64,000 nt of DNA from Varibaculum prostatecancerukia (GTDB taxonomy: Bacteria > Actinomycetota > Actinomycetes > Actinomycetales > Actinomycetaceae), in the NCBI RefSeq assembly GCF_943169825.2, contig NZ_OW968402.1, positions 1,798,001 to 1,862,000 of the forward strand. The letters are read 5' to 3'. The notes beneath the pieces were generated by a model. That model saw nothing but the letters and a program-made list of their open reading frames with translations. It did no database searches and was not told the DNA's origin. Numbering within the stretch: the stretch's first letter is position 1; every line of letters starts with the position of its first letter. The translations under genes and the position numbers were made by a program. Shown here piece by piece: positions 4,320-39,346 of this stretch.

Positions 4320-5732
4320 CTAAAGCAATAGTAAAATAACCGCCGCGACCAGGGTAATTAGGGCGCCGACACCTAAGCCGATCGCCACTCCGCCTACGAT
4401 TTCTTTAGCTGCGCCCCGCCGGCGAGCAGGCGCGTCTTGGCGGGGAGAAGCACTCGATGGGCTCTCGGCAAAACCGGGACTGTTTTCCCAGGCGCCTAAA
4501 GTTTGCTCGTTTGCGGACTCCTCCTGCTCCCCTGGTGGCGAGAATCCCCCAGGAGACCCACCGACCCCGATAGCCTCCTCGGTATTAACCATAATTGCTG
4601 GTGGTAAAGCTACCGGACGCCAGACAGGAGCCGCCGGTTCAACCTGCCCGCGAGCGGTCTGCCCCGACTGGGTTTCGGCCTCATCGTGGGCAGGAATAAT
4701 CGGTTTCGCCGACGCCAAGGAAGTCTTAGCGTCTGCTGGGGAAACCTTCACCACATCCTCCAGCGGTTGCGGGGGCGGGGGCTCCTTTAATACTGGCAGA
4801 GCATCGAGGGGGCGCACCTGGTCAACTACTGACTTTAAGAGGGCGTGGGTCTGGGCAGCGCTGGGGCGCACCGAAGTCTCTTTCGCCAGCATTTGGGTAA
4901 TCACATTCCACAGGGAGCCAGGAATTCCGGGAAGCATTCCCGGCATATCGTAGAACTGATGCTCCAACACTTCCCCTACCGAGCCTCTAAAAGGGGTGAT
5001 TCCGCAGAGTAACTCGTAAAGGATCACTCCCAGGGAATAAATATCGGTTTTAGAACTGACTCCTTTGCCTTCAATCATTTCGGGAGCCATATAGTAGGGA
5101 GTTCCCGAGCGTTTCGTGGTTTGGATTTCGTAGCGGGGATCAATCCACCTGGCTAAGCCAAAATCCGCGATTTTTGGCACCAGGTAGTTACCTTGCCGTT
5201 TCAACAAAATATTGGAGGGCTTCAAATCGCGATGTACAATCCCGGCGTGATGAATCGGGGAAAGACCAGCGGCAATCCCCATGCAATAGTAGACGGCGTC
5301 TAAAGGCAGCAGCGTTCCCCGCTTTTTTAGTAGCTCCCCCAAATCCCCGCCATCGGTATATTCCATAATGATTGCCATATATTCCGGAGTTTGCACCAGA
5401 TCATAAACTTCCACAATGTTTTGGTGGCGCACCCCGGTAACCAGGTCTTTCTCCATCCGAAAACGCTGCGCAATCCCGGGTTTTACCGCCAACTTCGAAC
5501 GTAAAATCTTAGCGGCATACAGGTTTCCCCGCGAATCAGCGACCTTCCACACTTCCCCCATGGTGCCCGAACCTAGGGCTTTGAGCAGACGATAACCGGC
5601 GATATAAAACGGGGTTTGCTGGGGTGCGGGAGCTCCCTGGCTAACTACCGGCATTTGGGGGGATCTATAGCCGGCACCATGGCCCAAACTTTGCGGAACT
5701 TGGTCAGGATAATCAGGAAACTCAGCCACCAC
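4320..5732 (-). CDS. Membrane-anchored Ser/Thr protein kinase
   Basis: A 470-residue Hanks-type kinase. A proline-rich N-terminus (1-45) precedes the kinase domain (about 46-310) with glycine loop GSGTMGEV, catalytic HRDLKPSN, DFGLA and APE motifs. A Pro/Ala-rich linker follows, and a single C-terminal transmembrane helix (GVGALITLVAAVILLLL) ends the protein, so there is no extracellular sensor domain. GTG start; its RBS (GAGGAG) lies inside the end of the upstream FHA-ABC gene, whose stop codon directly abuts the start, so the two are probably translationally coupled. The arrangement matches mycobacterial pknF next to Rv1747, where the kinase phosphorylates an FHA-ABC exporter. The same partnership is inferred here. 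Confidence 0.93.
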   Translation of the reverse strand: MVAEFPDYPDQVPQSLGHGAGYRSPQMPVVSQGAPAPQQTPFYIAGYRLLKALGSGTMGEVWKVADSRGNLYAAKILRSKLAVKPGIAQRFRMEKDLVTGVRHQNIVEVYDLVQTPEYMAIIMEYTDGGDLGELLKKRGTLLPLDAVYYCMGIAAGLSPIHHAGIVHRDLKPSNILLKRQGNYLVPKIADFGLARWIDPRYEIQTTKRSGTPYYMAPEMIEGKGVSSKTDIYSLGVILYELLCGITPFRGSVGEVLEHQFYDMPGMLPGIPGSLWNVITQMLAKETSVRPSAAQTHALLKSVVDQVRPLDALPVLKEPPPPQPLEDVVKVSPADAKTSLASAKPIIPAHDEAETQSGQTARGQVEPAAPVWRPVALPPAIMVNTEEAIGVGGSPGGFSPPGEQEESANEQTLGAWENSPGFAESPSSASPRQDAPARRRGAAKEIVGGVAIGLGVGALITLVAAVILLLL

Positions 5733-8522
5733 TTATCTCCTCGACCTTGATAGAGGAACCGCAGTTAGCGCGGCAAATACGCCGTAGAATCCCACTAAAA
5801 TCAGCAGGTTAACACCCCACCGACCTGTAGACGGTTTCCATCGCTGATGTTTTTCCGGAATAGTGATGGGCTCTGGTTTTTTTAAGCTTTCAGCTTTAGG
5901 AGGAGCCTGTCCCAAGGCCTCAGCCTGTTGTTTGGCGTCTTCATTACGTTGGTCAATCTTCGCCTTGTTTTCCTCATAGGTTTTATCCTGTTTTTTCTGC
6001 GCATCCAGAGCTGATTGCCGGCGCACTCGATCCAAATCAACTGAGGCCGCACCGGCCGAATAAGCCCATTGGGAAGAAACCGTAGAAGATAACAGGTGTC
6101 CCGCACTGGAATCCTCAAAATCGATTACTCCCCCACACATCACCAACTGCACCATGAGCAGCACAATCATTACTGGAGTGGTCTGTTCTGCGCTGCGTAC
6201 CAAAGCAGAAAAGAATAGCCCTAAAGAGGACGCCGCCAAAGTTGCCAGCAAACAGGCAAGGAACAGCTCCCAACGGAAAGGCAGGGCAACCCCGTCTTTA
6301 GGAATCCGATTCAGTAATGTTATTACCACCGTAAGAATTCCCGCCTGCACCACTGCCGATAGCCCCAGGCTAATGATTTTTGATAGCAGATAGGCGCCTA
6401 AACGCAATCCCACCGCGGATTCTCGGAGAAAAATAGCGCGCTCGCGCACCAGCTCCCTAATCGCGGGAACCAGCCCCATCAGTACCGCCCCGAAAATCAC
6501 GATGACGAGCAACATTCCCGGTGATTTAATCCCCTCGGTATCGGTGCTACCCACGAACCCGGCTTTACCGGGAACCACTAGGGACAATACCGCCATTACT
6601 AGCGGCAGCGCCACCGTAAAAATCACTACCAGAGGATCGGCCATCATCAGTCGCATTTGGCGAGAAAACAAGGTGCGACTTTGCCTTAACAAAGAATGCT
6701 TCTTCGGTTGGATCAGTTGTTTTTGCGCCGGAGCCGCCCTACTGCCCGCACTAACCCCCGTGAGGCTTAGCGACCTCTTTATATCCTGGAGATTCACCCG
6801 TCCCGAGGAGGCGAACATAGCTTGCATCTGGTCAGGAGCCCGCGAAAGTAAATCATAGATTTCCGGAAAATCTTTCACCCCCAAGGGGGCAAAAAACCCT
6901 TTAATTCCCGCTGGCGGACCAAAGTAAGCCACTTTCCCCCCGGGAGCCAGCAGGAGCACATTATCCGCCATATGCAGATTGGCAGTTGAATGGGTAATAA
7001 CTACCACGGTGCGCCCTGGTTGTCCGTTTTGACCGTGCGCGAGTTTAGCTAAAAGCGCCATGACTTCTCGATCCAGATTAGGATCCAGTCCCGAAGTGGG
7101 CTCATCCAGGAACAACAAATCGGGTTCATCTAAAAGTTCCATTGCGGTAGATACCCGTTTACGTTGCCCTCCCGACATTCGTTTTACTTTCGTATCGGCA
7201 TGGGCTTGCAGGTCGAGCTGATTGATGACTCTCTGCACCGCTGCTTTTCGTACTGTGGCGGGAGTGTCATCCGGGAAACGGAGCTTGGCCGCATAATCTA
7301 AGACTTTTCGCCCCGTCAGATCCAGATGCAATAAATCATCTTGGGGAACTGCAGAAATCCGGTCAGAAAGCGCGGAGGCATATTGGCTCATCTCCAGGCC
7401 TTCAAAATAGGTGGCGCCCTTTTGTGGTTTGAGCTTGCCCATCATGCAGTTAAGAAGGGTAGATTTCCCTGCTCCCGAAGGGCCGATTACCGCCAACAAA
7501 GAATCCTTAGGAACCGCAAAAGATACCCGGTCTAAAATAGCCTTTTTCGACCCCGCGCCCTTTTGCCGTTCTGATCCACTGGTTCCTACCAGGAAAGACA
7601 TATCGTCCACGATTAGCGCTTCGTGAGTTTGCCCTTCAGCAACTATCGATCCGATTCTAACCAGATTATTTCCCACTAAACGCAGAGAAATCCTCCCCAC
7701 AGTTAGTACATCGCCCGGTTGTATTTGAGCGGCGCGTACTCGCAGACCGTTGATAAAAACTCCGTTAGTTGACCCCAGGTCGGTCACCGTTAATTTGCCG
7801 TAGTTAATAGCCAGCACCGCATGCCGGGAAGAAACCATCGGGTCTGGTAGTACCACTTCGTTTTCAGGATCACGCCCGATATGGAAAATCTGTCCGGGAG
7901 CAGGAATCGGAATCTGGTTACCAGCTCCCACGATTTCTCGGTTATCGGTTCTGCCCAAATTAGCGGGAAGTTTAGGTGGGGCGGGACGGGGCGGTTTTTT
8001 GCCGATACCCAAGGTTGTCCACCCAGTAGGAACCAACATGTCGGAACGAGACGCCATTTTAGGAGAGGCGGCGCTGACCGCCGTTTGCGGAATTTTTACT
8101 GGCTGCGAGGCAGGAATTTTTTCTACCCCTTTGGGAGCCGCTGCCCGGGGAGGCAGTGCGGAGGTCGGCGGCAAAGCTGCCGCGGGAGAACCGGCTGTTT
8201 TTAGCTCCTGGTTAATTAGTTTCTCTTGATAGGTAATAGTCGGGGCAGAAGGTTGTTTTCCCAGACGAACCTGCCCCACGCCCTCCATCTCATATGCCCT
8301 GCCGGGATGCAGCCGCTGCCCCGCAACATAGAGCCCGTTAGTTGAATTTAGGTCTGTAAGTGTAAAGCGTCCATTCTGGTAAGAAATTTTGGCGTGTCGT
8401 CGCGACACTACTGGGTCGTTGAGCGATAGGTCTGCGGATCTATCCCGACCTATCACCGCGCTCTGCCCACGAGAAAGAGTCAGCTCTTTCCCCCCGCACT
8501 GCACCAGTAGTTGCTTACCCAT
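5733..8522 (-). CDS. FHA-FHA-ABC transporter (Rv1747-like, ABCG type)
   Basis: A 929-residue fusion. Two FHA domains occupy about residues 1-80 (GRDRSADLSL, SRRH, NSTNG) and 205-285 (GRDPENEVVL, SSRH, GSTNG); both keep the Arg/Ser/His/Asn residues used to bind phosphothreonine. The ABC ATPase (about 300-560) has Walker A GPSGAGKST, signature MSGGQRKR and Walker B LLFLDEPTSGLD. An ABC2-type membrane domain (about 620-925) is interrupted near 825-875 by a charged, coil-like segment between membrane helices. In mycobacteria the homologous Rv1747 is an exporter implicated in cell-envelope glycolipid traffic and is controlled by PknF through FHA binding. Substrate here is unknown. ATG start; the kinase gene follows with zero spacing. 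Confidence 0.93.
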   Translation of the reverse strand: MGKQLLVQCGGKELTLSRGQSAVIGRDRSADLSLNDPVVSRRHAKISYQNGRFTLTDLNSTNGLYVAGQRLHPGRAYEMEGVGQVRLGKQPSAPTITYQEKLINQELKTAGSPAAALPPTSALPPRAAAPKGVEKIPASQPVKIPQTAVSAASPKMASRSDMLVPTGWTTLGIGKKPPRPAPPKLPANLGRTDNREIVGAGNQIPIPAPGQIFHIGRDPENEVVLPDPMVSSRHAVLAINYGKLTVTDLGSTNGVFINGLRVRAAQIQPGDVLTVGRISLRLVGNNLVRIGSIVAEGQTHEALIVDDMSFLVGTSGSERQKGAGSKKAILDRVSFAVPKDSLLAVIGPSGAGKSTLLNCMMGKLKPQKGATYFEGLEMSQYASALSDRISAVPQDDLLHLDLTGRKVLDYAAKLRFPDDTPATVRKAAVQRVINQLDLQAHADTKVKRMSGGQRKRVSTAMELLDEPDLLFLDEPTSGLDPNLDREVMALLAKLAHGQNGQPGRTVVVITHSTANLHMADNVLLLAPGGKVAYFGPPAGIKGFFAPLGVKDFPEIYDLLSRAPDQMQAMFASSGRVNLQDIKRSLSLTGVSAGSRAAPAQKQLIQPKKHSLLRQSRTLFSRQMRLMMADPLVVIFTVALPLVMAVLSLVVPGKAGFVGSTDTEGIKSPGMLLVIVIFGAVLMGLVPAIRELVRERAIFLRESAVGLRLGAYLLSKIISLGLSAVVQAGILTVVITLLNRIPKDGVALPFRWELFLACLLATLAASSLGLFFSALVRSAEQTTPVMIVLLMVQLVMCGGVIDFEDSSAGHLLSSTVSSQWAYSAGAASVDLDRVRRQSALDAQKKQDKTYEENKAKIDQRNEDAKQQAEALGQAPPKAESLKKPEPITIPEKHQRWKPSTGRWGVNLLILVGFYGVFAALTAVPLSRSRR

Positions 8523-28243: not shown

Positions 28244-30250
28244 ATGATTAGCTCGGTTCCGCCACCGCCTCCCGAGATGACTCCTGCTTCCGGCGCCCCT
28301 CCTACATCTGCTCCCATACGTGCTGGTGCACCCGCTTTTGCCGTTTCCAACCATCCTGGTCCCCACCGTCTTGCACCTCCCCCTCCTGCTCCTGCTTCTC
28401 CACCCGCTTCTTCCAATAGCCAAGCCCCTAAAGCCAGCTACCGAATTTTGGGGCTGGATGGTTTACGCGCGGTAGGCTGCGCCGCGGTTTTGCTTTACCA
28501 CTTGTTGCCGGAGGCTGCGCCGGGAGGATTCCTAGGGGTAGACGTATTCTTTGTGCTCTCCGGGTTTTTAATCACCGCTTTACTGGTGCGAGACTACGAA
28601 AAATTCGGCAAGGTAAGAATCACGCGGTTTTGGTTGCGCCGAATCCGCCGCCTCCTACCTGCAGTTGCCGCTACCGGTTTTTCTTGCACCATAATTGCAC
28701 TTTTCGTTTCCCGCGACCTCTTAGTAGGGATAAAAAGCCAGCTCGCTGGGGTTTTAACCTTTACCTATAACTGGCTAAAGATTTTCAAGGGTGAAAACTA
28801 TTTCACCATGTCCAATCCTGATTTGTTCACTAATATGTGGTCGTTGGCGGTAGAACAGCAGTTTTATCTGTTCTGGCCACTGGTAGTGCTGTTGCTAGTA
28901 TTGCTTCCGCGCCCCCTCAAGGTTCTGGCAGCACTACTTCTAGCGGCAGGGTCAGCCTTCCTAATGGGATTAATAGCGCCCGACGATTTGAATCGTGCCT
29001 ATATGGGATCGGATACTCACGCCTTCGGTTTAATGATCGGAGCGGCGCTAGCGTTTGCGGTCCGATCGCCCCTATCTCGCGCTTCTTCCCCCGCCAAAGG
29101 GGCGCAACTGCGCGGTTTAGCCGGAATTCTTAGCTTTCTCGTGCTCTTGGCTTGCTTCTACCTCGTTCCCGACCAGGGAAAATACACCTACCCTTGGCTG
29201 ACTCTGTCAGTTTGTCTCGCTGCTGCTTTAGTTATCCAAGCGGTTTTAGCTCCAGTAATCATCACTAAAACCGCAATGTCTCCCCTGGTTGTGGTGCTCG
29301 ACAGCAAACCATTTGTCTGGCTGGGAGAACGCTCATACGGCATCTACCTGTGGCATTGGCCAATCTTGGTCATCGCTCGTACTGCCGCTCCTCTGCTAAA
29401 TCCGTTAATAAATGCCCTGGTAGTAACCATACTTTCGGTACTTTTAGCTGCCGCAACTTACCGCTGGATCGAAAACCCGATGCGCAGAGGCGGAATCTTG
29501 CCGACTTTGAAACGCTGGATGGCCCCGATTAGGAAGCGCCCCCTTATTACTGCTTGCCGGTGGGTGGCAATCTGTACTTTCGTATCGGCAGTTATCGTTA
29601 GCGTAGCGTTGGCTCCGGCAAAAACCTCCGCACAAGAGGCAGTAGAGCGGGGGGAAGCCGCTAAAGCTACCGTTAGTGAGACTCCCTCTAAGCCTTCTAG
29701 CAACTCCCCTGTTCCTTCACCGCGTGGCCTGCCAATTCAACCGGTGGAAGCCAATGTAACTTTCCTGGGCGATTCGGTAATGCTTGCCTCTAAGGGCGAG
29801 ATTCAGGCGGCTTTCCCGGGCGCTGTGGTTGATGCGGAGGTTTCTCGCGCCTGGCCAAAGGCGGTATCTCTGATTAACCAGTATAAAGATTCAGGTCAAT
29901 TGGGGCATTGGGTGGTGCTGAGTTTGGCTACCAATACCGACTTAAAACCCGAGCAGATTGATCCAGTGCGGCAAGCATTAGGACCCGACCACCACTTGGT
30001 TTTGGTTACCGGTTTTGGTCCGGCCAGCGAACCTTGGATTTTTAGAACCAATGACGCTTTGATTGCCTACGCTGCCGCCCACCCTAAAGACACCCTGGTC
30101 GTCAGGTGGGATCAAGTTGCTCCTACTATCCGGGAGCATCTGGCCTCCGACAGCGTACACCCCGATCAAGAGGGTGCGAAACGCTGGGTAGCTGAGCTAG
30201 TGCAGACCCTCAAGGACTACCCGGGAGTTACTCAAGTCGGTACGCCTTAA
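28244..30250 (+). CDS. OafA/OatA-like membrane acyltransferase with SGNH domain
   Basis: A 668-residue protein. A proline-rich cytoplasmic N-terminus (1-65) precedes an acyltransferase-3 domain of about ten helices (70-420) with the family motifs LDGLRAVG, GVDVFFVLSGFLIT and RFWLRRIRRLLP. A C-terminal SGNH-hydrolase-like domain (about 495-660) has GDSVMLAS and the DSVHPD Asp/His pair. This architecture is that of O-acetyltransferases for peptidoglycan or surface glycans. Together with the nearby deacetylase and surface protein it suggests a cell-envelope modification neighbourhood. Confidence 0.9.
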   Translation: MISSVPPPPPEMTPASGAPPTSAPIRAGAPAFAVSNHPGPHRLAPPPPAPASPPASSNSQAPKASYRILGLDGLRAVGCAAVLLYHLLPEAAPGGFLGVDVFFVLSGFLITALLVRDYEKFGKVRITRFWLRRIRRLLPAVAATGFSCTIIALFVSRDLLVGIKSQLAGVLTFTYNWLKIFKGENYFTMSNPDLFTNMWSLAVEQQFYLFWPLVVLLLVLLPRPLKVLAALLLAAGSAFLMGLIAPDDLNRAYMGSDTHAFGLMIGAALAFAVRSPLSRASSPAKGAQLRGLAGILSFLVLLACFYLVPDQGKYTYPWLTLSVCLAAALVIQAVLAPVIITKTAMSPLVVVLDSKPFVWLGERSYGIYLWHWPILVIARTAAPLLNPLINALVVTILSVLLAAATYRWIENPMRRGGILPTLKRWMAPIRKRPLITACRWVAICTFVSAVIVSVALAPAKTSAQEAVERGEAAKATVSETPSKPSSNSPVPSPRGLPIQPVEANVTFLGDSVMLASKGEIQAAFPGAVVDAEVSRAWPKAVSLINQYKDSGQLGHWVVLSLATNTDLKPEQIDPVRQALGPDHHLVLVTGFGPASEPWIFRTNDALIAYAAAHPKDTLVVRWDQVAPTIREHLASDSVHPDQEGAKRWVAELVQTLKDYPGVTQVGTP

Positions 30251-30302
30251 CCTGCCAAAACCGCCTGACACACCCTAAAACCAGCGGATAACACGCGGGA
30301 TT

Positions 30303-31052
30303 TCAACCAGCCAATACTTGCGCAATAATTGCTTCGGTTTGCCCGGGGCCGGAAGTTGCGCGGGTTTGCACCCCGGTGCGCACCGCCGGGTAGTCGTTTC
30401 CATCGGGGTCAAGGCGATCCCCAACAAATAGCACCTGCGCGGGTTGGAGCCCGGTTTGCTCCAGGAACTCCCCTACCCCGTAGGCTTTATCAATCCCTTT
30501 CATGGTGATATCTACCGAGGTAGAACCACCTGAAAGTACGGTCAGTTCCGGCAACAGCTTTCCCGCGCGGGAAGCAATTTCTGCCCGTTTTTCCCCGCTA
30601 GGATCCCAAGCGTCCTTTTCTGCTTTTCCTGCCTGCTGCCCGAGGGCTGAATAGGTTAACTGGGAGCCGCGATCCTCGATGATTTCCCCTACCGGATTGT
30701 CGCACCAATATCCCAGGGAACGAGCGACCTCCTCAATCACCTTTTTCGCTTTGCCAGCAAGATCGGGATCCATGTCTAGGACATATTTGGCCTGCCAATC
30801 GCCATTTTCAAATCGGTAGTAGCGGGTGCCGCAAGTGGGCATAAGATGCAAGTTTTCCGGCGAAAATACTTGTGACTGCAAGGGAATTAGTAACTGCCTT
30901 GAAAACTGATGAAGAGAACCCCCGCTGATTACTCCGGTGGGAAGAGTGCGGGTGAGGCGCGCAAATTCTCTAGCCAGTCCCGCTTGCATTGCCTGCTTTG
31001 AGGGGGTCAGAGTGCCGTCCAGGTCAAACACCATTGCCTTAATCGCGCCCAC
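30303..31052 (-). CDS. HAD-IIB hydrolase, phosphomannomutase-like
   Basis: A 249-residue HAD-superfamily phosphatase. Motif I is DLDGTLTP, motif II region SGGS, and motif IV GDRLDPDGNDYP. The cap and overall pattern resemble eukaryotic-type phosphomannomutase and sucrose-phosphate phosphatase-like HAD-IIB proteins. The substrate is probably a sugar phosphate. GTG start after AAAGGTGAGAA. The 5' half is duplicated downstream in a broken form. It is divergent from a small membrane protein gene with two LacI-type operators between. Confidence 0.87.
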   Translation of the reverse strand: MGAIKAMVFDLDGTLTPSKQAMQAGLAREFARLTRTLPTGVISGGSLHQFSRQLLIPLQSQVFSPENLHLMPTCGTRYYRFENGDWQAKYVLDMDPDLAGKAKKVIEEVARSLGYWCDNPVGEIIEDRGSQLTYSALGQQAGKAEKDAWDPSGEKRAEIASRAGKLLPELTVLSGGSTSVDITMKGIDKAYGVGEFLEQTGLQPAQVLFVGDRLDPDGNDYPAVRTGVQTRATSGPGQTEAIIAQVLAG

Positions 31053-31267
31053 TTCTCACCTTTCTATTTGCGATGACCTTAAACCAATTAGCTATTGTAA
31101 AGCCTAAAGCGGGCTGCCTCGTTTTTTACTTCCTGGGGGCAGATTAAAATGCCAGCTAGTCGCGTAATCACAGGGCAAGCTAGCCTGAAGACCGGCAAAT
31201 CCGAGAGACTGCCCCATGCACCCGAATCCGCAGTAAAATTTCAGGTTTTTCCAGCCTCTAACCGGTA

Positions 31268-31283
31268 TGTAATCGTTTTCACA
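31268..31283. promoter_or_regulatory. LacI-family-type operator, distal (module copy 1)
   Basis: TGTAATCGTTTTCACA has the central CG and flanking A/T blocks of LacI-family or CcpA-type operators. The same site occurs at the same relative place in module copy 2 (35415), although surrounding bases have diverged. Confidence 0.6.
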
Positions 31284-31383
31284 AAAGCTGTTTTAATCTG
31301 CCTTAAACCTCTTATCACCTGCATATTTAAGTATTGCACTTAATGAAATTACCCCTCGTTTCTCATTTTTCTTTGTCTAGACA

Positions 31384-31434
31384 TTGACTAGGGGCGTGAA
31401 AGCTTTCTATAGTAATCATGTAAACGTTTCCACG
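31384..31434 (+). promoter_or_regulatory. Promoter with overlapping LacI-type operator (module copy 1)
   Basis: The -35 TTGACT (31384-31389) and -10 TATAGT (31408-31413) are 18 bp apart. The operator TGTAAACGTTTCCACG (31419-31434) falls on the expected start of transcription, so binding should repress. It would drive the 76-residue membrane protein. The same arrangement is kept in copy 2. Confidence 0.75.
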
Positions 31435-31493
31435 AGGGAGAGAGTTCAACCGGAACTTTCCGAATCGGAAGAACAGAAAGAGAGAAAATAAAA

Positions 31494-31724
31494 ATGGCTA
31501 TTTTGGTTGCACCGTCAATCCCGATGAACTCTACTCGGCTAGAAGAGCCGAGCATGGTTGCTGCTGTCGCGTTTTTCGCGCTAATGTTCGCTGGCGCTGG
31601 GATTACCCTAGTCGGCATTGTGGCAGCTTCTGCGATTACTACTATTCTGGGCGGACTAATGACCGTCGTTAGCACTCTTGGAGTGACTTGGTCTCACCTA
31701 TACTTCAAGCTCAAGGGAGAATAG
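31494..31724 (+). CDS. Small two-helix membrane protein, paralogue 1
   Basis: A 76-residue protein; two hydrophobic segments at about residues 21-42 (VAAVAFFALMFAGAGITLVG) and 44-65. It shares 37 of 76 residues with the product at 35640, including the N-terminal pattern APS-PM-ST-LE-P. I recognise no family. Coding is supported by this paralogy, by a ribosome-binding region (AAAGAGAG) and by a strong promoter and terminator of its own. Regulation through the LacI-type operators suggests a link to sugar metabolism or transport. Confidence 0.8.
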   Translation: MAILVAPSIPMNSTRLEEPSMVAAVAFFALMFAGAGITLVGIVAASAITTILGGLMTVVSTLGVTWSHLYFKLKGE

Positions 31725-31950
31725 GTTACTAGCGGCAACGGATCTAGTTGCCAGCAAACACCTAATGCGCGTCGCCGCCAGCGACGCCTAAAGTCTGACC
31801 GAGCGAAGAAAAAAAGACAGATACCGGTAAATCTGGACACTGTCCACATAAATAGGGATGATCCCAAACCTATGGGTTACTACCCACAGATTACGGAATC
31901 AGCCTAGGAAAGAGTCTAAGCTTGGCAGACTCTCTCAAGACTGTTAGCAA

Positions 31951-31986
31951 GTGGGGCGGATGGATTTCCATCCGCCCCACTTTTTT
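31951..31986 (+). terminator. Intrinsic terminator of small protein 1
   Basis: GTGGGGCGGATGGA faces TCCATCCGCCCCAC and is followed by TTTTTT. A near-identical hairpin follows paralogue 2. The remaining 31725-32271 stretch holds no gene; a small hairpin, AAAGGACG-GGCA-CGTCCTTT at 32181-32200, may terminate the alcohol dehydrogenase gene. Confidence 0.9.
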
Positions 31987-32271
31987 GCGCTTATACACTT
32001 ATCTCGTCCCTTCCCGCCCCTTGAGGTCAGGCCGAGGCTCCCCAATGCCAGCGAGATTTTCGGGAGGGTATCTCTTTTGCGGCTAAGCCAGTTCCTCCCC
32101 TTAATACGTGGCTACCTCGAATACTGGGGCAGCAGCGAGAAAAAAGCCAAGGGCGCCGACTCACTAAAACCACACATACTAAAGGACGGGCACGTCCTTT
32201 CTCAAAAAGAACGCGCCCGCCCTGAAGTCACAGCTAGCAGCTGCCGAAGCGATTAACGGAAACCGTATAAC

Positions 32272-33399
32272 TTACAGCGACATATCTACCACAGCGCGGC
32301 CTTGTACCTCGCCCTTGGCTAGCAGATTGTAGGTGGCACCGGCTTCTTCCAGCGGAACCCGCTTGGTAACAATCTTCTTGTAATCGATTAGCCCCTGATC
32401 AGCCATGCGGATTACCTCCGGCAGATCCTGGCGAGTACGAGCTCCATAGGATCCCAAAATGTGTTGAGAACGACGTACCAGACGATTGATTTCTACCTGA
32501 GCGGTCTGCACCCCGGCACCTAGGCCAATCGGCACCATGCGTCCTCCGTCTTTAAGTACGTCTAGCGCGGTAGTCCAGGTTTCAGGACGCCCAAGCGCCT
32601 CGAAGGCCACATCTACCCCGCGTCCATCAGTAATCTTCAGGATTTCCGCACGCGCATCCTGGGTAACCGAATTGATAACGTCGGTCGCACCCAATTCTTT
32701 AGCACTGGCTAGTTTGTCATCGGAAATATCGATACCCACGACCTGCCGCGCCCCGAAGGCCTTGGCAATCTGGATGATGTTCGAGCCTACGCCCCCAGTG
32801 GCAACTACCGCTACGCTCTCTCCAAAGTGCAGGTCAGCGCCACGACGCACCGCGCCGAAAGCGGTCATCGCCGCACAGCCAATAATCGCAGAAGCAACCA
32901 AATCCATACTTTCGGGCACTACCGCTACCGAAGTGGAGGGCACTACCGCGTATTCCGCGAGCCCACCCATGGAGTACATGGCGATTTCGCTACCGTCCAA
33001 ATCAGCCAAGCGGGTGGTGCCGTCATAGAGCTTTCCCTGCAAGCGGTTGAGGTCGAAGAAGGGCGCACAAAGATCATCGCGTCCGGAGGAACATGCCTCA
33101 CACTGACCACAAGGCATTAGGAATGCTCCCGAAACATACTGACCTACTTTCAGGCCGGTGTGCTCGTTACCTTCTCCCAGTTCAACGATTTGCCCGGCAA
33201 CTTCATGACCGAGTACGCAAGGCTTGGGGAAATTGATTGCTCCCCCAATTACGTGCAGGTCAGAGTGGCAAAGTCCGCAAGCAGCCACTTTGATAAGTAC
33301 TTCTCCCGCCTTGGGGTGAGGGGTGCGGATCTCGTTTACTTCCAGTCCTTTATCAATATCGCGTAGAACTGCGGCTTTCATTGTCTCGGGAATTGTCAT
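32272..33399 (-). CDS. Zinc-dependent alcohol dehydrogenase (MDR family)
   Basis: A 375-residue medium-chain dehydrogenase. The catalytic-zinc motif CGLCHSDLH is near residue 38 and GHEVAG follows. The structural-zinc cysteines are in CGQCEACSSGRDDLC (about 95-109), and the Rossmann glycines are in GVGGSN. It oxidises an alcohol or reduces an aldehyde with NAD(P). The ATG is chosen because AAGGAGCAGG precedes it; an upstream in-frame start adds 21 unlikely residues. Upstream lies ACATTTTGACAA, also found before the Gfo/Idh gene. Confidence 0.93.
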   Translation of the reverse strand: MTIPETMKAAVLRDIDKGLEVNEIRTPHPKAGEVLIKVAACGLCHSDLHVIGGAINFPKPCVLGHEVAGQIVELGEGNEHTGLKVGQYVSGAFLMPCGQCEACSSGRDDLCAPFFDLNRLQGKLYDGTTRLADLDGSEIAMYSMGGLAEYAVVPSTSVAVVPESMDLVASAIIGCAAMTAFGAVRRGADLHFGESVAVVATGGVGSNIIQIAKAFGARQVVGIDISDDKLASAKELGATDVINSVTQDARAEILKITDGRGVDVAFEALGRPETWTTALDVLKDGGRMVPIGLGAGVQTAQVEINRLVRRSQHILGSYGARTRQDLPEVIRMADQGLIDYKKIVTKRVPLEEAGATYNLLAKGEVQGRAVVDMSL

Positions 33400-33726
33400 A
33401 TCCTGCTCCTTCGCTAGAGTTTCGTTTAAAAACTTTCTTGACCTTGCAGCTGCGGCGGACACTGCCGCTTCTGTCGGTTAAGTCCAGTATCAACCATATT
33501 TGAATCTTTGTCCATACATTTTGACAAAATAAAATATTTATCCGGTTACTTTCGAACTAGAGAGGATTTGCCCGGGACTAATGGCACAGACAATCATCTA
33601 TTTTGGGAAGGGCGAATACTAGCTGCATACTGTTAGCCTCTTCTTGAAATAATTGTAAGTACAATAACTTCATAGCTAGATTTGCTAGTCTAAACCCAAC
33701 ATTCAGAAATAAAAGGAGAGGCGCTG
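33400..33726. other. Divergent promoter region of ADH and TSUP genes
   Basis: No gene seen. It is A/T-rich near 33490-33560 and contains TTTGTCCATACATTTTGACA and its continuation, a TTTGTC/GACAAA inverted pair. The 12-mer ACATTTTGACAA (33516-33527) recurs at 39166-39177. Confidence 0.4.
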
Positions 33727-34479
33727 CTGGTTCTTACCCCGGGATTGATCCTCACCTTGGTTGCCTGCGCCATTATGTGCGGACTGGCAAAAACCGCGCT
33801 GCCGGGACTGGCATGCGTACCGGTGGCGATCTTAGCTGCGGTAACGCCCACCCGCCCCTCCACCGCCCTAATGCTACTGATGCTGCTAACCGGGGATTTA
33901 CTGGCAATCTGGACCTACCGCAAGGACGCTGACTGGAAAGTCCTGCGCGGTCTATTTCCGCCTGTAGCCGTAGGGGTAGCCATCGGCGCACTTTTTCTGG
34001 CAAAAGTATCTAACCAGATAATGAAAGTTTCCATCGGGATTATTATTTTGGCTCTTACTGCCCTCACCCTGGCGCTCATCTGGTACGCGCGTCGCACCGG
34101 GCGCGACCTGGGCGCTTCCATGAGCGCTTCTTTGCCTGCACGCTTGTTTTACGGCTCCCTATCCGGCTTCACTACGATGGTCGCTAATTCTGGAGGACCA
34201 GTAGTCTCCCTGTATTTCCTGGCCTCCCGTTTTGAGGTCCGCCGCTTTTTAGGTACTCAAGCCTGGTTTTTCTTTATCGTCAACCTGCTAAAGCTACCTT
34301 TTTCCGCCGGCATTGGTCTGATTGATCAGCAAATGTTGCTGATCGCGCTGTGTCTAGCTCCCCTAGTTCTGGGGGCAGCCGTGCTGGGGCGCTGGTGGAT
34401 AGGGCGTATTGACAATAAGATCTTTGATCCGATTGTCACTGCCCTAACCATCGTTTCCGCAGTGATCCTTCTGATCTAG
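33727..34479 (+). CDS. TauE/SafE (TSUP) family membrane transporter
   Basis: About 250 residues with seven to eight hydrophobic helices and the TSUP pattern GSLSGFTTMVANSGGP in the middle. TSUP proteins are anion exporters or importers, often for sulfite, sulfoacetate or related organosulfur compounds; the substrate is unknown. The start is unclear: TTG at 33745 has no RBS nearby, whereas AAAAGGAGAGG stands 5-7 nt before in-frame CTG codons at 33724/33727, so a rare CTG start is proposed. Divergent from the alcohol dehydrogenase gene. Confidence 0.85.
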   Translation: MVLTPGLILTLVACAIMCGLAKTALPGLACVPVAILAAVTPTRPSTALMLLMLLTGDLLAIWTYRKDADWKVLRGLFPPVAVGVAIGALFLAKVSNQIMKVSIGIIILALTALTLALIWYARRTGRDLGASMSASLPARLFYGSLSGFTTMVANSGGPVVSLYFLASRFEVRRFLGTQAWFFFIVNLLKLPFSAGIGLIDQQMLLIALCLAPLVLGAAVLGRWWIGRIDNKIFDPIVTALTIVSAVILLI

Positions 34480-34524
34480 CCGCGAGTACGCCGCGTAATC
34501 TGCGGGCGCGGGAAACCTGCTAAG

Positions 34525-34630
34525 CGCGGGGAAAGATTTTTCCTCCCGCCCAAGAATTCGGAAAAAGACCGCAGGCATTTTCCGAATTCTTATGCCCACC
34601 GCACCTGCTCGGATAAAACCTTTACCCGCG
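34525..34630 (-). repeat. Intergenic nested-hairpin element B, copy 4 (inverted)
   Basis: In minus orientation. The outer stem (34615-34630 with 34525-34540) has a fourth sequence version (GGGTAAAGG) and pairs with one G-U and one mismatch. The inner arms AAGAATTCGGAAAA / TTTTCCGAATTCTT are kept while the loop differs. The core GAGCAGGTGCGGTGGGCAT is conserved. No element A accompanies this copy. Confidence 0.93.
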
Positions 34631-34744
34631 TCTATTTACACTCAATACCACGCACACTTTTCCCTGCAGTTCACCGCAGTAAGAAAATAACTGAGAGCTA
34701 ATCCCATAATCGGTTCCACACGGGTTATTCAACACATGGAAAAG

Positions 34745-34771
34745 CGGGGGCGAGCTCAGCTCGCCCCCGCG
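34745..34771 (-). terminator. Intrinsic terminator, minus strand
   Basis: A perfect 13-bp stem (GCGGGGGCGAGCT and complement) with one central base, followed on the minus strand by CTTTTCC. It lies 45 bp after the end of the broken HAD gene. Confidence 0.75.
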
Positions 34772-34815
34772 TATCAGGTAACTGACCTACAGATTTTCAC
34801 CTGTAGATTTAGCAA

Positions 34816-35196
34816 TTACTTGCTGTAAATGTGCTCCATGTAGGATTCGATTTCATCCAAGGAACGAGCGACCTCCTCAATCACCTTTTTCGCTTTACCA
34901 GCAAGATCGGGATCCATGTCTAGGACATATTTAGCCTGCCAACCACCATTTTCAAACCGATAGTAGCGGGTTCCGCAGGTGGGCATAAGATGCAGGTTTT
35001 CCGGCAAAAACGCTTGCGCCTGCAAGGGAGTTAGCAACTGCCGCGAAAACTGTTGAAGTGAACCTCCACTGATTACTCCGGTGGGAAGAGCGCGAGTGAG
35101 GCGAGCAAACTCTCTAGCTACACCCGCTTGCATTGCCTGCTTCGAAGGGGTCAAAGTGCCATCCAGGTCAAATACCATTGCCTTAATCGCGCCCAC
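34816..35196 (-). pseudogene. Truncated HAD hydrolase fused to the 3' end of the sugar porter gene
   Basis: The first ~112 residues match the intact HAD hydrolase (about 93 percent identity by eye, including DLDGTLTP). The frame then passes into LDEIESYMEHIYSK, which is the C-terminus of the MFS porter with one extra Lys. The 45 bp at 34822-34866 are identical to 36166-36210. The join falls in GGAACG, shared by both parents. HAD motifs III and IV are missing, so it should not be a working phosphatase. An ATG at 35211 is an alternative start. Confidence 0.9.
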
Positions 35197-35414
35197 TTCT
35201 CGCCTTTCCATTCGCGGTGTTTTCCGGCCAACTAGTTATTGTAAAGCCTAAAGCTGAATCCGTAGCTTTCACTTCCCTCTAGGGTAGCTTCCCAAAGGTC
35301 GCAGCCAAGTTTAAAGATTGCTACCCTCCTCCCCAATCCCGGGTCATGTTCCAGGCTTTAGGTGAAGCTCAGAATTCGCCCCGTTCCCCGGATTTTCTAA
35401 CTCTACAATGGGTA

Positions 35415-35430
35415 TGTAATCGTTTTCATA
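35415..35430. promoter_or_regulatory. LacI-family-type operator, distal (module copy 2)
   Basis: TGTAATCGTTTTCATA, one base different from the site at 31268, in otherwise diverged surroundings. Conservation between paralogous regions argues for function. Confidence 0.6.
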
Positions 35431-35528
35431 AAAATAGTTTTAATGCATTATTTATTGCTTTGACCAGGGCTGTTAGCTGTAAAAGCTGCCTAAAACACCC
35501 GGCAGTTCTCATATTCTTTTCTCAGACG

Positions 35529-35579
35529 TTGACTAGGGGCTAGAAATGTCCTTATAGTAATCATGTAAACGTTTCCACG
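35529..35579 (+). promoter_or_regulatory. Promoter with overlapping LacI-type operator (module copy 2)
   Basis: TTGACT (35529-35534), 18-bp spacer, TATAGT (35553-35558), then TGTAAACGTTTCCACG (35564-35579). All three are identical to copy 1 while the spacer sequence differs. Confidence 0.75.
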
Positions 35580-35639
35580 AAGGCGAAAGTTCAACCGGAA
35601 CTTTCCGAATCGTAAGAACAGAAAGAGAGAAAAATAAAA

Positions 35640-35870
35640 ATGGCTACTTTCATTGCTCCTTCGGCTCCGATGGCTTCTACTCAGCTAGAGGATCCTAAAT
35701 TCCTTGCCGCTATCAACTTAATTGCGTTATTGATTTCAGGCGTAGTTATTACCTTGCTCGGCATTATCACTGGCTCCATGATCGCCACAGGTTTGGGCGG
35801 ATTGCTGACCGTTGGCAGCGCCATCGGTCTTCCGTGGTCGCTCCGTTACTTACAGGGCAAGGACAAGTAA
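35640..35870 (+). CDS. Small two-helix membrane protein, paralogue 2
   Basis: A 76-residue protein, same length and topology as the product at 31494 and identical at 37 positions. Shared features are the N-terminal APS-PM-ST-LE-P pattern, ITL-GI, LGGL-TV and the late WS. No family recognised. The leader before the ATG (GTTCAACCGGAACTTTCCG...) is nearly the same in both copies. It lies next to the sugar porter gene, convergent with it. Confidence 0.8.
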   Translation: MATFIAPSAPMASTQLEDPKFLAAINLIALLISGVVITLLGIITGSMIATGLGGLLTVGSAIGLPWSLRYLQGKDK

Positions 35871-36053
35871 CTTTCGGCAACAACCAGCTTTTGTTGTCAA
35901 TAAAATTCAATAGGTGTCGTCACCAGCGACGCACAAAGTCTTGCCAAGCTCAGTATTAACAGGGCGCAAAGCTAGGTAACAGCTTGCTGTTTGCAAATTG
36001 CAAGTAGCTCAGAAATTCTTCAGAGCCTGGCAGACTCTCTCTCAAGACTGTTA

Positions 36054-36084
36054 GGGGGGCGGATGGATTTCCATCCGCCCCCCC
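36054..36084 (+). terminator. Hairpin terminator of small protein 2
   Basis: GGGGGGCGGATGGA faces TCCATCCGCCCCCC, the counterpart of the hairpin at 31951, but without a T-run after it. It may be weaker. Confidence 0.65.
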
Positions 36085-36162
36085 TGCAATTGCAGGCTCC
36101 CATCCCTGCGTATTACGTATTTAGCGGCAAATTTACAGTATTAAATACAGTTTTCTAGGCTA

Positions 36163-37812
36163 CTAGCTGTAAATGTGCTCCATGTAGGATTCGATTTCAT
36201 CCAAGGAACGTCCGGAAGTTTCCGGCATGATCTTGAACAACACCACCGCAATGATCAGGTTCAACACCCCATACATCGCATAAGTGGGTCCACCGCCCAG
36301 AGCGGCAATCATCGGCGGGAAAGTCCAGGTGATGATGGCGTTCATAATCCACATGCAGAAGATGGCAGTACCATTCATAATTCCGCGCACATTTGCGGGG
36401 AACATTTCACCCAGCATTGTCCAAACTACAGTACCGTTCGAGGACTGCACCACCAGCATGAATAGTGACATCATTAGCAGCACCAAGTACCCTGCCCACA
36501 CCGGCACGCTGCCGGCTGCGTCATGAGGAGCAATCACAAACTGGAAAATTAGGGCGATTCCCAGCAACAGGATACCTACCAGGGTGACGTCCCAGATCAA
36601 AATAGTGCGCCGGCGGAACTTGGTAATCAGAATCAAGCCGATAGCCGAGCCTACTACACTCATTACGCCGTTAGCTACCTGCGCAGTAATCGCGGCAGAA
36701 GTTCCCATGCCCGCGATGCCCAGCACCTTCGGCGCGTAATACATAACCGTATTTACCCCGGTGGTCTGGTTGACAATCGCTAAGAATATACCTACGAACA
36801 TCAGTTTGCGCAGCCAGGGCGTGTTCATTACGTCGCGGAAAGTACCTTTCTTGCCGTGTTCTTGGCTTTGACGAGCCTCAATCATCTCGTGCAGTTCCTC
36901 GGTAAGATCCCCATCTTTCTTGGGGTCACGCACCCGTTTCAAGGATCCGATAGCGGCGTAAACTTCCTGCTGCAGCACATGCCAACGGGAAGATTCTGGC
37001 ATCAGGTGCATCCCAATCCACAGGGCAACGGCAGGCACTGAACAGAGCACAATCATCCAACGCCAGGCGGCACCGTTACCGGCCGAAACCGTCATATTGG
37101 AGATGAAATCATGTGCTGCCTGCACATCGTGACTACCAAGGTGCTTAGACACTATTGCGTTCAAAGCATCCCAAGAGTACTCTCCAGCCTTCACTACCCC
37201 AGCAGGATCTGATTTCACGGTAATCTTCGGTCCGCCGTGAGCAGAGTTAATAATCGCGTTCATGGAGAAGGCCAACAGCTGCCCGACTACAATCATCAAC
37301 TGGTCAACGGCCACGATAGTACCGCGGATCCGCTTAGGTGCAGTTTCTGCCAGGAATACTGGCACCGTTGCCGAGGCGCCACCTACGGCTAGCCCCAGGA
37401 TTAGGCGGAACGGATACATTACCCAAATATTGGGGGCAAAAGTATTACCGATAGCACCAATCAGGAACAAAATGGCCAGCATAATGATGTTGTGCCGGCG
37501 ACCATAACGATCGGAGAGCCGTCCTCCAAATAGCGCCCCGAAGGCAGCACCTAGGGTAAGGATACCGCCAATTGCGCCCTCTTGAGCAGGAGTAATCCCC
37601 ATGCCACCTGCACCGTGCGGCATATACATATAGGGCAAAGCACCGGAAATGACCCCGGTGTCATACCCGAATAGCAGGGAGCCCAGGGTGGCCACTGCCG
37701 CCACGGCAATAACTCCGCGATGATTTCCCGAGGACGGGGTTTCCTGCACCATTTTTTGCAGTTTTTCTTTACTCAACTCATTCAGAGGAGTTTTTTCTTT
37801 ATTTATTTCCAC
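36163..37812 (-). CDS. MFS sugar porter
   Basis: A 549-residue transporter of the sugar porter family. Signatures are GYDTGVISG in helix 1, DRYGRRHN, the mid-protein PESSRWHV and the C-terminal PETSGRSLDEIE. Twelve helices; a ~45-residue extension or insertion (about 195-245, with GGPKITVKSDPAG) lies in an external loop. Likely proton-linked import of a hexose, pentose or inositol. It follows the Gfo/Idh/MocA gene by 31 bp and should be in the same operon. Its last 45 bp are copied in the HAD fusion at 34822. Confidence 0.93.
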   Translation of the reverse strand: MEINKEKTPLNELSKEKLQKMVQETPSSGNHRGVIAVAAVATLGSLLFGYDTGVISGALPYMYMPHGAGGMGITPAQEGAIGGILTLGAAFGALFGGRLSDRYGRRHNIIMLAILFLIGAIGNTFAPNIWVMYPFRLILGLAVGGASATVPVFLAETAPKRIRGTIVAVDQLMIVVGQLLAFSMNAIINSAHGGPKITVKSDPAGVVKAGEYSWDALNAIVSKHLGSHDVQAAHDFISNMTVSAGNGAAWRWMIVLCSVPAVALWIGMHLMPESSRWHVLQQEVYAAIGSLKRVRDPKKDGDLTEELHEMIEARQSQEHGKKGTFRDVMNTPWLRKLMFVGIFLAIVNQTTGVNTVMYYAPKVLGIAGMGTSAAITAQVANGVMSVVGSAIGLILITKFRRRTILIWDVTLVGILLLGIALIFQFVIAPHDAAGSVPVWAGYLVLLMMSLFMLVVQSSNGTVVWTMLGEMFPANVRGIMNGTAIFCMWIMNAIITWTFPPMIAALGGGPTYAMYGVLNLIIAVVLFKIMPETSGRSLDEIESYMEHIYS

Positions 37813-37843
37813 TGGTTTAGCTTTCTTTTTCGAAGGGGTGAAG

Positions 37844-39043
37844 TTACTTATCGTAGGTGGTGGCGCCGCTTACCTTTGCGACTTCATGCCAACACCCATC
37901 CGCAGCTGATTCCACGGTAGCCTGATCTATTTCGGCAGCTGACCAACCATCGGCGACTGAGGGCGCAATCTGTTTACCGGTTAACACTCCCGACAGGAAC
38001 TGGTAGCACTCGACTGCTTTCATATCATCGAAGCCCATTGAGGTGCCGGCTCCCGGCTGGAAACGCGAGAAATGCGGATAGTGAGGATTGGCCATTGAAC
38101 GGACGTATCCGTGTATCACTCCATTGTCCTGTCCGATGCAGGCCTGCAGATCATTGAGGTATTCGAAGTTCCAACGCACTGAACCTTCAGTACCATAAAC
38201 TTCCACAATGTACTCGGCACGCGGTCCCACGCTCACGCGAGAGGACTCCATGGTGCCCACCACTCCGGAATCAAAACGCACCATCATGGCTACGTAGTCC
38301 TCGTTTCCGACTTCCTTCTTTTCGTCAGAAACTTCCCAACCGGTGTGACCAACACCGGCCTTAGTGGGAATAGGACGCTCTTTAATAAAGGTGTCAGTCA
38401 GGGCAGAAACCGAGCTAATCCGGTCACGCAAAATATATTGCACCAGGTCAGCTCCGTGACTCATCAGGTCACCAACAACCCCAGCACCTGCTTTTTCCCG
38501 GTCGTAACGCCAGGTGTAGGGACCGTCGGGGCTGGAGGCATAATCGGCGATTAACCAGCAACGAACATTGGTAATTCGCCCCAGCTTCCCTTCAGCAATC
38601 ATTTCCCGTGCCTGTTCAACCGCGGGAGTGTGGCGATAGTTAAAGCCAACCGCGGTGTTAATGCCCGCGTTTTGAGCGGCTTCGGCAATTTCGCGAGACT
38701 CGGTAGCACTTACGCCCATCGGTTTTTCAATCCAGAAAGGTTTGCCGGCCTCAGCTGCCGCGACTGCAATTTCACGGTGTAGAAAGTTAGGCGAACAGAT
38801 GGACACCACGTCCACTTCCGGATCTGCGAGTACCTCGCGGTAATCGGCAACTGCTTTCTCGAAACCGAGCGCCTCGGTCGCGAGCTTTTGGGTTTCTGCG
38901 ATGGGGTCACAAGCTACCACCAGACGCACCTCGGCTCCCAGCTCTGGAAATCGCTCTGCCATCGCTTTATACGAACGCGTATGCAGGCGCCCCATCCAGC
39001 CTAGAGATATCACCCCTACGCCAATTTTCTTCTTATCTGACAT
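37844..39043 (-). CDS. Gfo/Idh/MocA-family oxidoreductase
   Basis: A 399-residue NAD(P)-dependent dehydrogenase of the glucose-fructose oxidoreductase/inositol dehydrogenase family. The Rossmann motif GVISLGWMGRLH is near the N-terminus and the family's EKPMG is near residue 105. Substrates in this family are sugars, inositols and their derivatives; the adjacent porter supports import followed by oxidation of a sugar or cyclitol. ATG start with an RBS-like AAGGAG. First gene of the operon. Confidence 0.92.
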   Translation of the reverse strand: MSDKKKIGVGVISLGWMGRLHTRSYKAMAERFPELGAEVRLVVACDPIAETQKLATEALGFEKAVADYREVLADPEVDVVSICSPNFLHREIAVAAAEAGKPFWIEKPMGVSATESREIAEAAQNAGINTAVGFNYRHTPAVEQAREMIAEGKLGRITNVRCWLIADYASSPDGPYTWRYDREKAGAGVVGDLMSHGADLVQYILRDRISSVSALTDTFIKERPIPTKAGVGHTGWEVSDEKKEVGNEDYVAMMVRFDSGVVGTMESSRVSVGPRAEYIVEVYGTEGSVRWNFEYLNDLQACIGQDNGVIHGYVRSMANPHYPHFSRFQPGAGTSMGFDDMKAVECYQFLSGVLTGKQIAPSVADGWSAAEIDQATVESAADGCWHEVAKVSGATTYDK

Positions 39044-39128
39044 ATAAACTCCTTACCCAGCCACCATTGGCTATCGTTTGAGTGGCAGTAAGAGCTTCGA
39101 TTGCTCGAAATACCACGCCCTCAAATCT

Positions 39129-39146
39129 AACCGAAACTTTTCGGTT
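39129..39146. promoter_or_regulatory. 18-bp palindrome upstream of the Gfo/Idh-porter operon
   Basis: AACCGAAACTTTTCGGTT is a perfect 8+2+8 palindrome 86 bp before the start codon, a likely operator for a dimeric repressor. ACATTTTGACAA lies just upstream (39166-39177). Confidence 0.6.
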
Positions 39147-39211
39147 TGTCTACCACTTTGACATAACATTTTGACAATACCAATTCTGCTTGTCATAAAG
39201 CTAAAGAAAAT

Positions 39212-39266
39212 ATAAAAAGACGCGGGATGAGTCAACCGGGTAACACCCGATAAACTCACCCCGCGC
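39212..39266 (-). terminator. Terminator of the S10 operon
   Basis: A compound hairpin: GCGGGGTGAGT faces ACTCATCCCGC, with CGGGTGTTACCCG inside, followed on the minus strand by CTTTTTATATTTT. It closes the ribosomal operon after rpsQ. Confidence 0.8.
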
Positions 39267-39346
39267 CTTGCAGCTAAAGGAATCAGCTTAGAGGATATTA
39301 TCGTCCTCTAGCGTTAACGATTACCTCGAAAACCTTTAGTGAAAAA

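Follow-up and report, generated by a model that had tools for sequence, protein, structure and literature searches.

Foreign DNA can be added to a bacterial genome by homology-facilitated illegitimate recombination, a process described in S. pneumoniae, A. baylyi, and P. stutzeri (PMC3240628), in which homologous exchange takes place at one end and an illegitimate join forms at the other. The locus considered here would follow the same scheme, although, unlike the cases in that account, it is read from a natural junction rather than from an observed transformation. A mechanism akin to this one has been proposed by the authors who described the T6SS orphan immunity arrays of Vibrio cholerae (PMC5361080). 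As in our locus, a diverged small gene in those arrays lies beside the other copy, together with the remnant of a displaced gene. An effector/immunity relation, however, is not known from our locus, and the likeness is one of layout only. Finally, the merodiploids of S. pneumoniae transformation, as presented in PMC3784515, are similar in that a partial duplication arises during DNA exchange. These are tandem duplications that formed at repeats and span ~100-900 kb, besides a single duplication of 3,276 bp that lacks flanking repeats, and their copies are not diverged, whereas those of Varibaculum are.

The locus lies in a window of 64,000 nucleotides of Varibaculum prostatecancerukia and contains two modules with the same parts. 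Module 1 (30714-31982) and module 2 (34858-36083) each comprise the start of a HAD gene, a promoter with two LacI-type operators, a leader, and the gene of a 76-aa protein. A zinc alcohol dehydrogenase (ADH; 32272..33462, minus strand) is convergent with small protein 1; its coordinates run from an upstream start codon, and the part conserved in relatives starts near 33400. To the right of module 2 there is a sugar porter family MFS transporter (36163..37812, minus strand; TIGR00879, 296.5 bits with a cut-off of 237.8). Each of five other Varibaculum genomes (G001-G005) has one module, giving seven modules in six genomes for comparison (two own and one from each relative); among the six, module 2 is present only in this genome. 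Identity between the two modules differs strongly by part, which confirms what the first-pass annotation had described. The N-terminal HAD part (HADn) is 92.9% identical in protein over 113 aa (89.7% in nucleotides), the upstream operator O1 94.7%, and the promoter-to-leader segment 89.6%. By contrast, the upstream spacers are 49.8 and 53.8% identical, the small gene 62.8% (48.7% in protein, 37/76), and its 3′ UTR 59.2%. In the first 60 nt of this 3′ UTR, the two own copies show 64% identity, compared with 88% in G003 and 87% in G005.

In the lac paradigm, promoters of the LacI/GalR type have an auxiliary operator. The control region of the modules is similar, with two palindromic predicted sites about 150 bp apart at fixed spacing, one of them over the start. 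It departs from the paradigm in that the regulator may be any of nine LacI-type candidates encoded in the genome and that looping is only proposed. O1 (TGTAATCGTTTTCA; 31268..31281 in module 1 and 35415..35428 in module 2, plus strand), recognized by its sequence pattern, is unchanged in 6/7 modules, G004 having TGTAACCGTTTTCA. O2 (TGTAAACGTTTCCA; 31419..31432 and, by sequence pattern, 35564..35577, plus strand) lies over the expected transcription start and is identical in all seven. Every module (7/7) has a palindromic predicted operator, with CG at its centre, that covers the start site or lies close to it. The distance between O1 and O2 is 149-151 bp throughout, in contrast to that from HAD to O1, which varies from 203 to 337. 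In the 2.21-Mb genome, TGTAANCGNTTNCA occurs at four sites, which are these two O1/O2 pairs, and nowhere else. Read backwards as a control, the pattern also gives four sites (3 + 1), and the number of sites is at chance level; that all four lie here, with fixed spacing, and recur in relatives is not chance. The wider pattern TGNAANCGNTTNCA has five sites in the genome, four of them in these modules, against three for its control. Around the nine LacI-type genes, a single TGNAANCGNTTNCA site was found, and with a different centre.

A promoter scan placed TTGACT-18-TATAGT at 31384..31413 in module 1 and 35529..35558 in module 2 (plus strand). These are the top two of nine promoter-like sites in 30950-36300, where shuffled sequence gives 5.0 +/- 2.2, and both TATAGT and TTGAC are aligned in 7/7 modules. 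Downstream, the leader is predicted to form a hairpin with an 8-bp stem and a 5-nt loop (31440..31460 and 35585..35605, plus strand). In a covariation count that covers the inner 8 of 15 predicted pairs, changes on both sides were seen in 3/8 pairs and 56/56 cells were paired; among the 7 outer pairs, two are broken, each in one sequence. Operators, promoter, and leader are retained at fixed spacing in the seven modules of six genomes, which bears out the earlier proposal that the conserved islands are a footprint of the true regulatory sites. Downstream of small protein 1 there is a perfect inverted repeat (31949..31982; arms of 16 nt with 2 nt between) followed by a run of T and, thus, terminator-like. 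Its counterpart in module 2 (36054..36083; arms of 14 nt with 2 nt between) has the same core and no run of T after it. A terminator scan requiring a loop of 3-8 listed neither repeat, and Rfam gave five matches at E 5 or better in 30000-38000, all under the gathering score. The cell probably produces the small membrane protein in two versions, both controlled by a single LacI-family repressor. This repressor would occupy O2 at the transcription start as well as O1, ~150 bp farther upstream, perhaps through looping.

Small hydrophobic protein 1 (76 aa; 31494..31724) and its diverged copy, small protein 2 (76 aa; 35640..35870), are both plus-strand open reading frames, the second being also recognized by pairwise comparison. 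Orthologues of protein 1 are 92% identical in G003 and 86% in G005, and 63, 62, and 53% in G002, G001, and G004, respectively; strong divergence is not general among them. For both proteins, all Pfam matches were below the cut-off; NCBIfam gave two such matches with protein 1 but nothing with protein 2, the PHROGs matches were weak (E 0.03 or worse) and had no known function, and PADLOC gave no match. In 213 genomes, a seven-row profile recovered both own copies, a single copy per genome in the five other Varibaculum, and two weak matches in genus g17. The structure model of protein 2 (7 rows) is poor, with one long helix, a mean pLDDT of 72.5, and a pTM of 0.39. Hydropathy indicates a single broad hydrophobic stretch, and two membrane helices are a guess.

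The two HAD genes, both on the minus strand, are unlike in extent. That of module 1 (30303..31052) encodes a full HAD-IIB family phosphatase of 249 aa (NCBIfam HAD-SF-IIB, 63.8 bits with a cut-off of 41.8), while the second (34816..35211; 131 aa as listed) is a truncated chimera of HAD residues 1-113 of 249 and a transporter tail. It has no complete catalytic domain, and Pfam HAD models score under their cut-off on it. HADn of the two modules differs by a dS of 0.42 with an omega of 0.08, the kind of divergence expected of an intact HAD. The two copies have similar distances from G003 (dS 0.71 and 0.65) and from G005 (1.01 and 1.03). Between the modules, synonymous changes number 27/85 in HADn and 36.5/60 in the small gene (Fisher p 0.0011, rounded counts). 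The parts are consequently not equally old, as a recent tandem duplication in place would have them, and the first-pass annotation was right that a single recent duplication is insufficient. The orthologues diverge unevenly too, and uniform divergence of all module parts was not seen among them.

The inserted segment (34867..36160) is absent at that place from 5/5 other Varibaculum genomes. It is flanked by a direct repeat of the 50-nt 3′ end of the transporter, whose left (34817..34866) and right (36161..36210) copies, both on the minus strand, match at 49/50 positions. At the left copy, HAD codon 113 is joined in frame to the transporter end at a 6-nt match, CGTTCC (34861-34866; GGAACG on the plus strand). 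Apart from these few bases, the two sequences that meet at the join are unrelated. The chimeric HAD, ending in the last codons of the transporter, and the 50-nt repeat were absent from the earlier description. The insert interrupts a tract in which this genome and G003 are almost identical, with a dS of 0.06, against 0.6-0.7 to the left of the tract. By gene, dS from G003 is 0.06 for both MFS and GFO; elsewhere it is 0.70 for HAD, 0.61 for ADH, 0.60 for TauE, and 0.22 for rpsQ. The left part of the tract (34245..34866, its left edge being approximate, from 100-nt bins) consists of the TauE 3′ end, the intergenic region, and the 50-nt transporter tail, and this flank with its tail matches an uninterrupted region of G003 (19 differences in 421 at 34445-34866, JC 0.047). 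At the right end of the insert, the transporter 3′ end is 99/100 identical to G003. The dS between the two HADn copies is about seven times that of the interrupted tract.

On balance, these observations suggest that module 2 was probably imported recently, in an already diverged form and through homology-facilitated illegitimate recombination, rather than duplicated locally. The donor DNA would have come from an unsampled Varibaculum lineage with HAD, small gene, and transporter together. After uptake, one end may have recombined by homology within the transporter 3′ end and the other by the 6-nt illegitimate join, so that a diverged small gene, a whole control region, and a truncated HAD would have been added and nothing lost. 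The join looks young because the left 50-nt copy does not differ from G003 at any position (0/50). About nine differences would be expected (P ~1e-4) if the join dated back to the HADn divergence and the copy had been under no constraint. The argument is strong only without such constraint, since the tail is generally conserved (1/50 from G001 and 3/50 from G005 for the left copy). The split of the tract common with G003 also points to import. A point against import is the unequal depth of HADn and small gene, which requires that the donor was itself mosaic or that one more exchange took place.

The first-pass annotation had suggested, as the first of two options, an older duplication with conversion of the HAD part, and this is the second-best explanation, possible yet rather unlikely. 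A tandem duplication of HAD, small gene, ADH, TauE, and transporter tail, followed by loss of the second ADH-TauE, would give exactly the novel joint found between transporter tail and HAD, and conversion would make HADn younger than the small gene, as it is. Weak leanings toward pairing the two own copies are found in the trees of the upstream spacer (69/79, unstarred), the leader (36/54, unstarred), and the pooled non-HAD parts (49/80), and the pairing is not rejected for the small gene (AU p 0.07); for the origin of the module, however, the trees are weak. Against this history, the left tail lies within the young tract, so that the join would have had to be refreshed as well; the flanks downstream of the transporter do not resemble each other on the left and on the right; and all five relatives lack the second module. 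It is the young-looking join and the split tract that favor import over this history.

The other proposal of the earlier note, diversifying selection on the small proteins, is not supported. A recent local duplication after which the small gene alone changed fast, under diversifying or relaxed selection, is improbable. It would agree with the pooled non-HAD tree, where the second copy stands on a long branch with the first, G003, and G005 (95/100). Against it, synonymous sites and the 3′ UTR have changed as well, and omega, tested pairwise only, is 0.30 for the own pair (dS 1.23) and ranges from 0.11 to 0.40 over all pairs for which it could be computed (20 of 21). In comparisons of this genome with G003 and G005, conservation is higher in the small gene than in the HAD part (dS 0.22-0.36 against 0.71-1.27), and HADn has diverged far more than the tract in which the join lies. 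Still less probable is the converse history, in which module 2 is native and illegitimate recombination introduced module 1 along with ADH, TauE, and the left flank, so that the native HAD was displaced and truncated. Join and repeat are equally expected from it, and small gene 1 has an unusually low dS to G003 and G005 (0.34 and 0.22), as if exchanged. Both flanks would, however, have had to turn G003-like independently, while one split tract explains both at once, and ADH and TauE are not G003-like (dS 0.6).

No donor of the preferred import was found. Module 2 is diverged from every other module in the six genomes, and none of the five relatives has the order HAD, small gene, and transporter uninterrupted by ADH and TauE. 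The 77 nt between inverted repeat and transporter (36084..36160) have no full match in these genomes, only matches of 15-19 nt (best E 0.07), and weakly resemble the sequence downstream of the transporter in G004. The position of the break cannot be read from the upstream spacer because it changes freely in the pairs examined. A search of genome contigs with small protein 1, not 2, and possibly leaving out the species itself found V. vaginae only. The genome has a ComEC-family protein, by a search that also matches the E. coli control; its presence is compatible with DNA uptake and no demonstration of it.

The case is one of ordinary genome evolution, fairly well dated. Among the matches listed for Varibaculum genomes and for recombination or horizontal gene transfer, titles and abstract openings held no account of the locus, nor did those for a small membrane protein with a convergent alcohol dehydrogenase in Actinomyces. 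A gene pair that looks duplicated and then changed by diversifying selection can have arisen by import; a dated tract together with a chimeric join helps to separate the two. Very doubtfully, the small-protein locus might be a cassette site where diverged versions of a single repressed membrane protein are exchanged again and again among Varibaculum species. Of these, the first would have been recently common to three species and the second added to one of them, several versions being useful, for instance, for protection from, or signalling to, kin. The comparison also provides a phylogenetic footprint for a promoter with two operators, and it draws attention to a small membrane protein that has no family name and whose relatives, in several Actinomycetaceae genera, adjoin an alcohol dehydrogenase.

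The Varibaculum genome holding the window is a single contig of 2,211,690 bases. Module 1 (30714-31982) is formed by an HAD-IIB phosphatase gene on the reverse strand, a two-operator promoter, a leader, a gene for a 76-residue hydrophobic protein on the forward strand and a terminator-like inverted repeat. Beyond it lie a convergent zinc alcohol dehydrogenase (ADH), a TauE-type exporter, a sugar porter (MFS) and a GFO/IDH/MocA-type oxidoreductase (GFO). Module 2 (34858-36083), located between TauE and the sugar porter, has a second HAD start, promoter, leader, small gene and an inverted repeat at which the run of T is missing. In effect, it is a copy without its dehydrogenase. The similarities between the modules claimed in the first-pass annotation were confirmed by recomparison. 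All five other Varibaculum genomes compared (G001-G005) have one module each, in the common order HAD, small gene, ADH, TauE, MFS, GFO and ribosomal protein gene. In G002, two sugar porter copies (1979-3613 and 5258-6904 of its stretch L013) flank the GFO gene and are 77% and 95% identical to that of the window, the additional copy being the 77% one, across GFO from the other.

When the seven modules of these six genomes are aligned, the upstream operator (O1), the promoter, the operator over the expected transcription start (O2) and the leader are kept, while the spacers have diverged. Thus, the proposal that the conserved islands are a footprint of the regulatory sites holds. The O1-O2 distance is 149 or 151 bp and the TATAGT-O2 distance 11 in all seven modules, while the distance from HAD to O1 varies from 203 to 337. 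There are four TGTAANCGNTTNCA sites in the genome, every one at these modules; a reversed control pattern also has four, so weight is placed on position, spacing and conservation rather than on this count. For TGNAANCGNTTNCA, four of five sites are at these modules (control, three). Palindromic operators of this type are expected to be bound by LacI-family repressors, and such a repressor probably binds here. None of the nine LacI-family genes in the genome could be tied to these operators, and the strict operator pattern is absent from the stretches looked at in g17, another genus of the family.

The leader can fold as a hairpin in which, across the seven sequences, three of eight pairs have changed on both sides and none is broken. 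These both-side changes were matched by 2 of 500 shuffles, and the number of further pair types by 219 of 500. As the structure was derived from the same seven sequences, the pair changes are only suggestive of a real, conserved hairpin. Read by eye, the leaders in L034 (before the small gene) and L035 (before another short reading frame) have CGTCCGTGC..GCACGGAC in common, and also a stretch with potential pairing to the ribosome-binding site (region around L036 and L037).

Between modules, the HAD N-terminal part (HADn, residues 1-113) has 27/85 synonymous and 8/254 nonsynonymous changes (omega 0.08), and the small gene 36.5/60 and 48.5/168 (omega 0.30). Synonymous change differs between the two (Fisher p 0.0011, counts rounded), and 3′ UTR identity is 59% between modules, 68% against G003 and 73% against G005. 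Diversifying selection on the small proteins, as had been suggested, is therefore not favored, given an omega of 0.30 and synonymous sites and 3′ UTR that have diverged too. Nor is the small gene generally fast, since its synonymous divergence is below that of HADn between this genome and G003 (0.34 and 0.71, p 0.026) or G005 (0.22 and 1.01, p 8e-6), and the same holds for G003 compared with G005 (p 1e-4); G001 and G002 show no significant difference (p 0.23). Against G005, the value of 0.22 for small gene 1 (31494-31724) is also far under those of HAD, ADH and TauE (0.75-0.82). Separate exchange between species, or constraint, may explain such low values.

The junctions of module 2 point to another cause. 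Its HAD runs to residue 113 and then continues in frame into the last codons of the transporter, with CGTTCC present at the join in both genes. The last 50 nt of the transporter flank the insert (34867-36160) on both sides, with one difference between copies, and the left copy has 0/50 differences from G003, where the insert is missing. Against G003, dS is 0.06 for MFS and GFO and about 0.05 for the left flank, compared with 0.60-0.70 for HAD, ADH and TauE to the left of this tract and 0.22 for rpsQ to its right. The near-identity of the sugar porter and GFO to G003 extends over 34245-39340 (against L011), likely an exchange tract between two species. Module 2 sits within it, yet its HADn differs from that of module 1 by a dS of 0.42 with an omega of 0.08, so the module appears to predate its present position. 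The two HAD copies lie at similar distances from G003 and from G005, which would fit a second copy that stayed an intact gene until recent times. Searched against the five other genomes, the 77-nt right flank gives no more than short matches, with a weak likeness to the transporter-downstream region of G004.

If a diverged module came in through homologous exchange on its transporter side and was joined over 6 nt on its HAD side, the tail repeat, the chimeric HAD and the split tract would be accounted for in one step. Homology-facilitated illegitimate recombination, which combines homology at one end with a short join at the other, has been reported from three transformable species and, as a rare event, from conjugation in E. 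coli (PMC3240628); the same type has been proposed for immunity gene arrays (PMC5361080). The main alternative, an older duplication in the own lineage, gains from the general conservation of the transporter tail: the left copy differs from G001 at 1/50 and from G005 at 3/50 positions, so that the youth of the join depends on this copy being free to change. This lowers the standing of import slightly and raises that of duplication by as little, leaving the latter rather unlikely. Trees are weakly resolved overall. For the small gene, module 1 groups with G003 and G005 without module 2 (96/99), and a pairing of the two modules is not rejected (AU p 0.07). For HADn, both modules group with G003 and G005 (90/96), and the tree neither establishes a pairing of the two nor does the test reject it (p 0.28). 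The best spacer and leader trees pair the modules, unstarred (69/79 and 36/54), and the pooled non-HAD tree puts module 2, on a long branch, with module 1, G003 and G005 (95/100). No donor of module 2 was found among the genomes searched; with HADn near and the small gene distant, a donor must combine both. The uneven divergence is a sound observation, and its cause is most likely import, not selection, with somewhat better than even confidence.

No library searched placed the small protein in a family. With a nine-row profile, 213 genomes from 36 genera of the family were searched, and 21 of them, from 9 genera, hold relatives at an E of 0.01 or lower: six Varibaculum, three g17 and 12 weak others (E 2e-6 to 0.009). 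An ADH orthologue (70-77% identical) is present in 7 of the 20 stretches L036-L055, and a close dehydrogenase in 82 of the 213 genomes. For 30 of these 82 places, the dehydrogenase gene was inspected together with 1.5 kb to either side. At an E of 0.1 or lower in that small set, a small hydrophobic relative was present in 6/6 Varibaculum and 11/24 others, always on the 3′ side of the dehydrogenase; among the 11, nine are convergent and two on the same strand. Since the profile already included L063 and L064, two of these 11, and most of the Varibaculum rows, their matches are built in; leaving out L063 and L064 gives 9/22 non-Varibaculum places, eight convergent. The small protein thus tends to accompany the dehydrogenase, judging by gene neighborhoods, and an adjoining HAD is seen in Varibaculum only among the stretches examined. 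As a low-confidence guess, the protein could have a role in fermentative or sugar metabolism, as a membrane partner or as a regulator. The stretches with such a protein 3′ of a conserved zinc alcohol dehydrogenase come from several genera and are L062, L063, L064, L069, L070, L073, L078 and L080-L083, and L041 has two tandem copies of the small hydrophobic protein.
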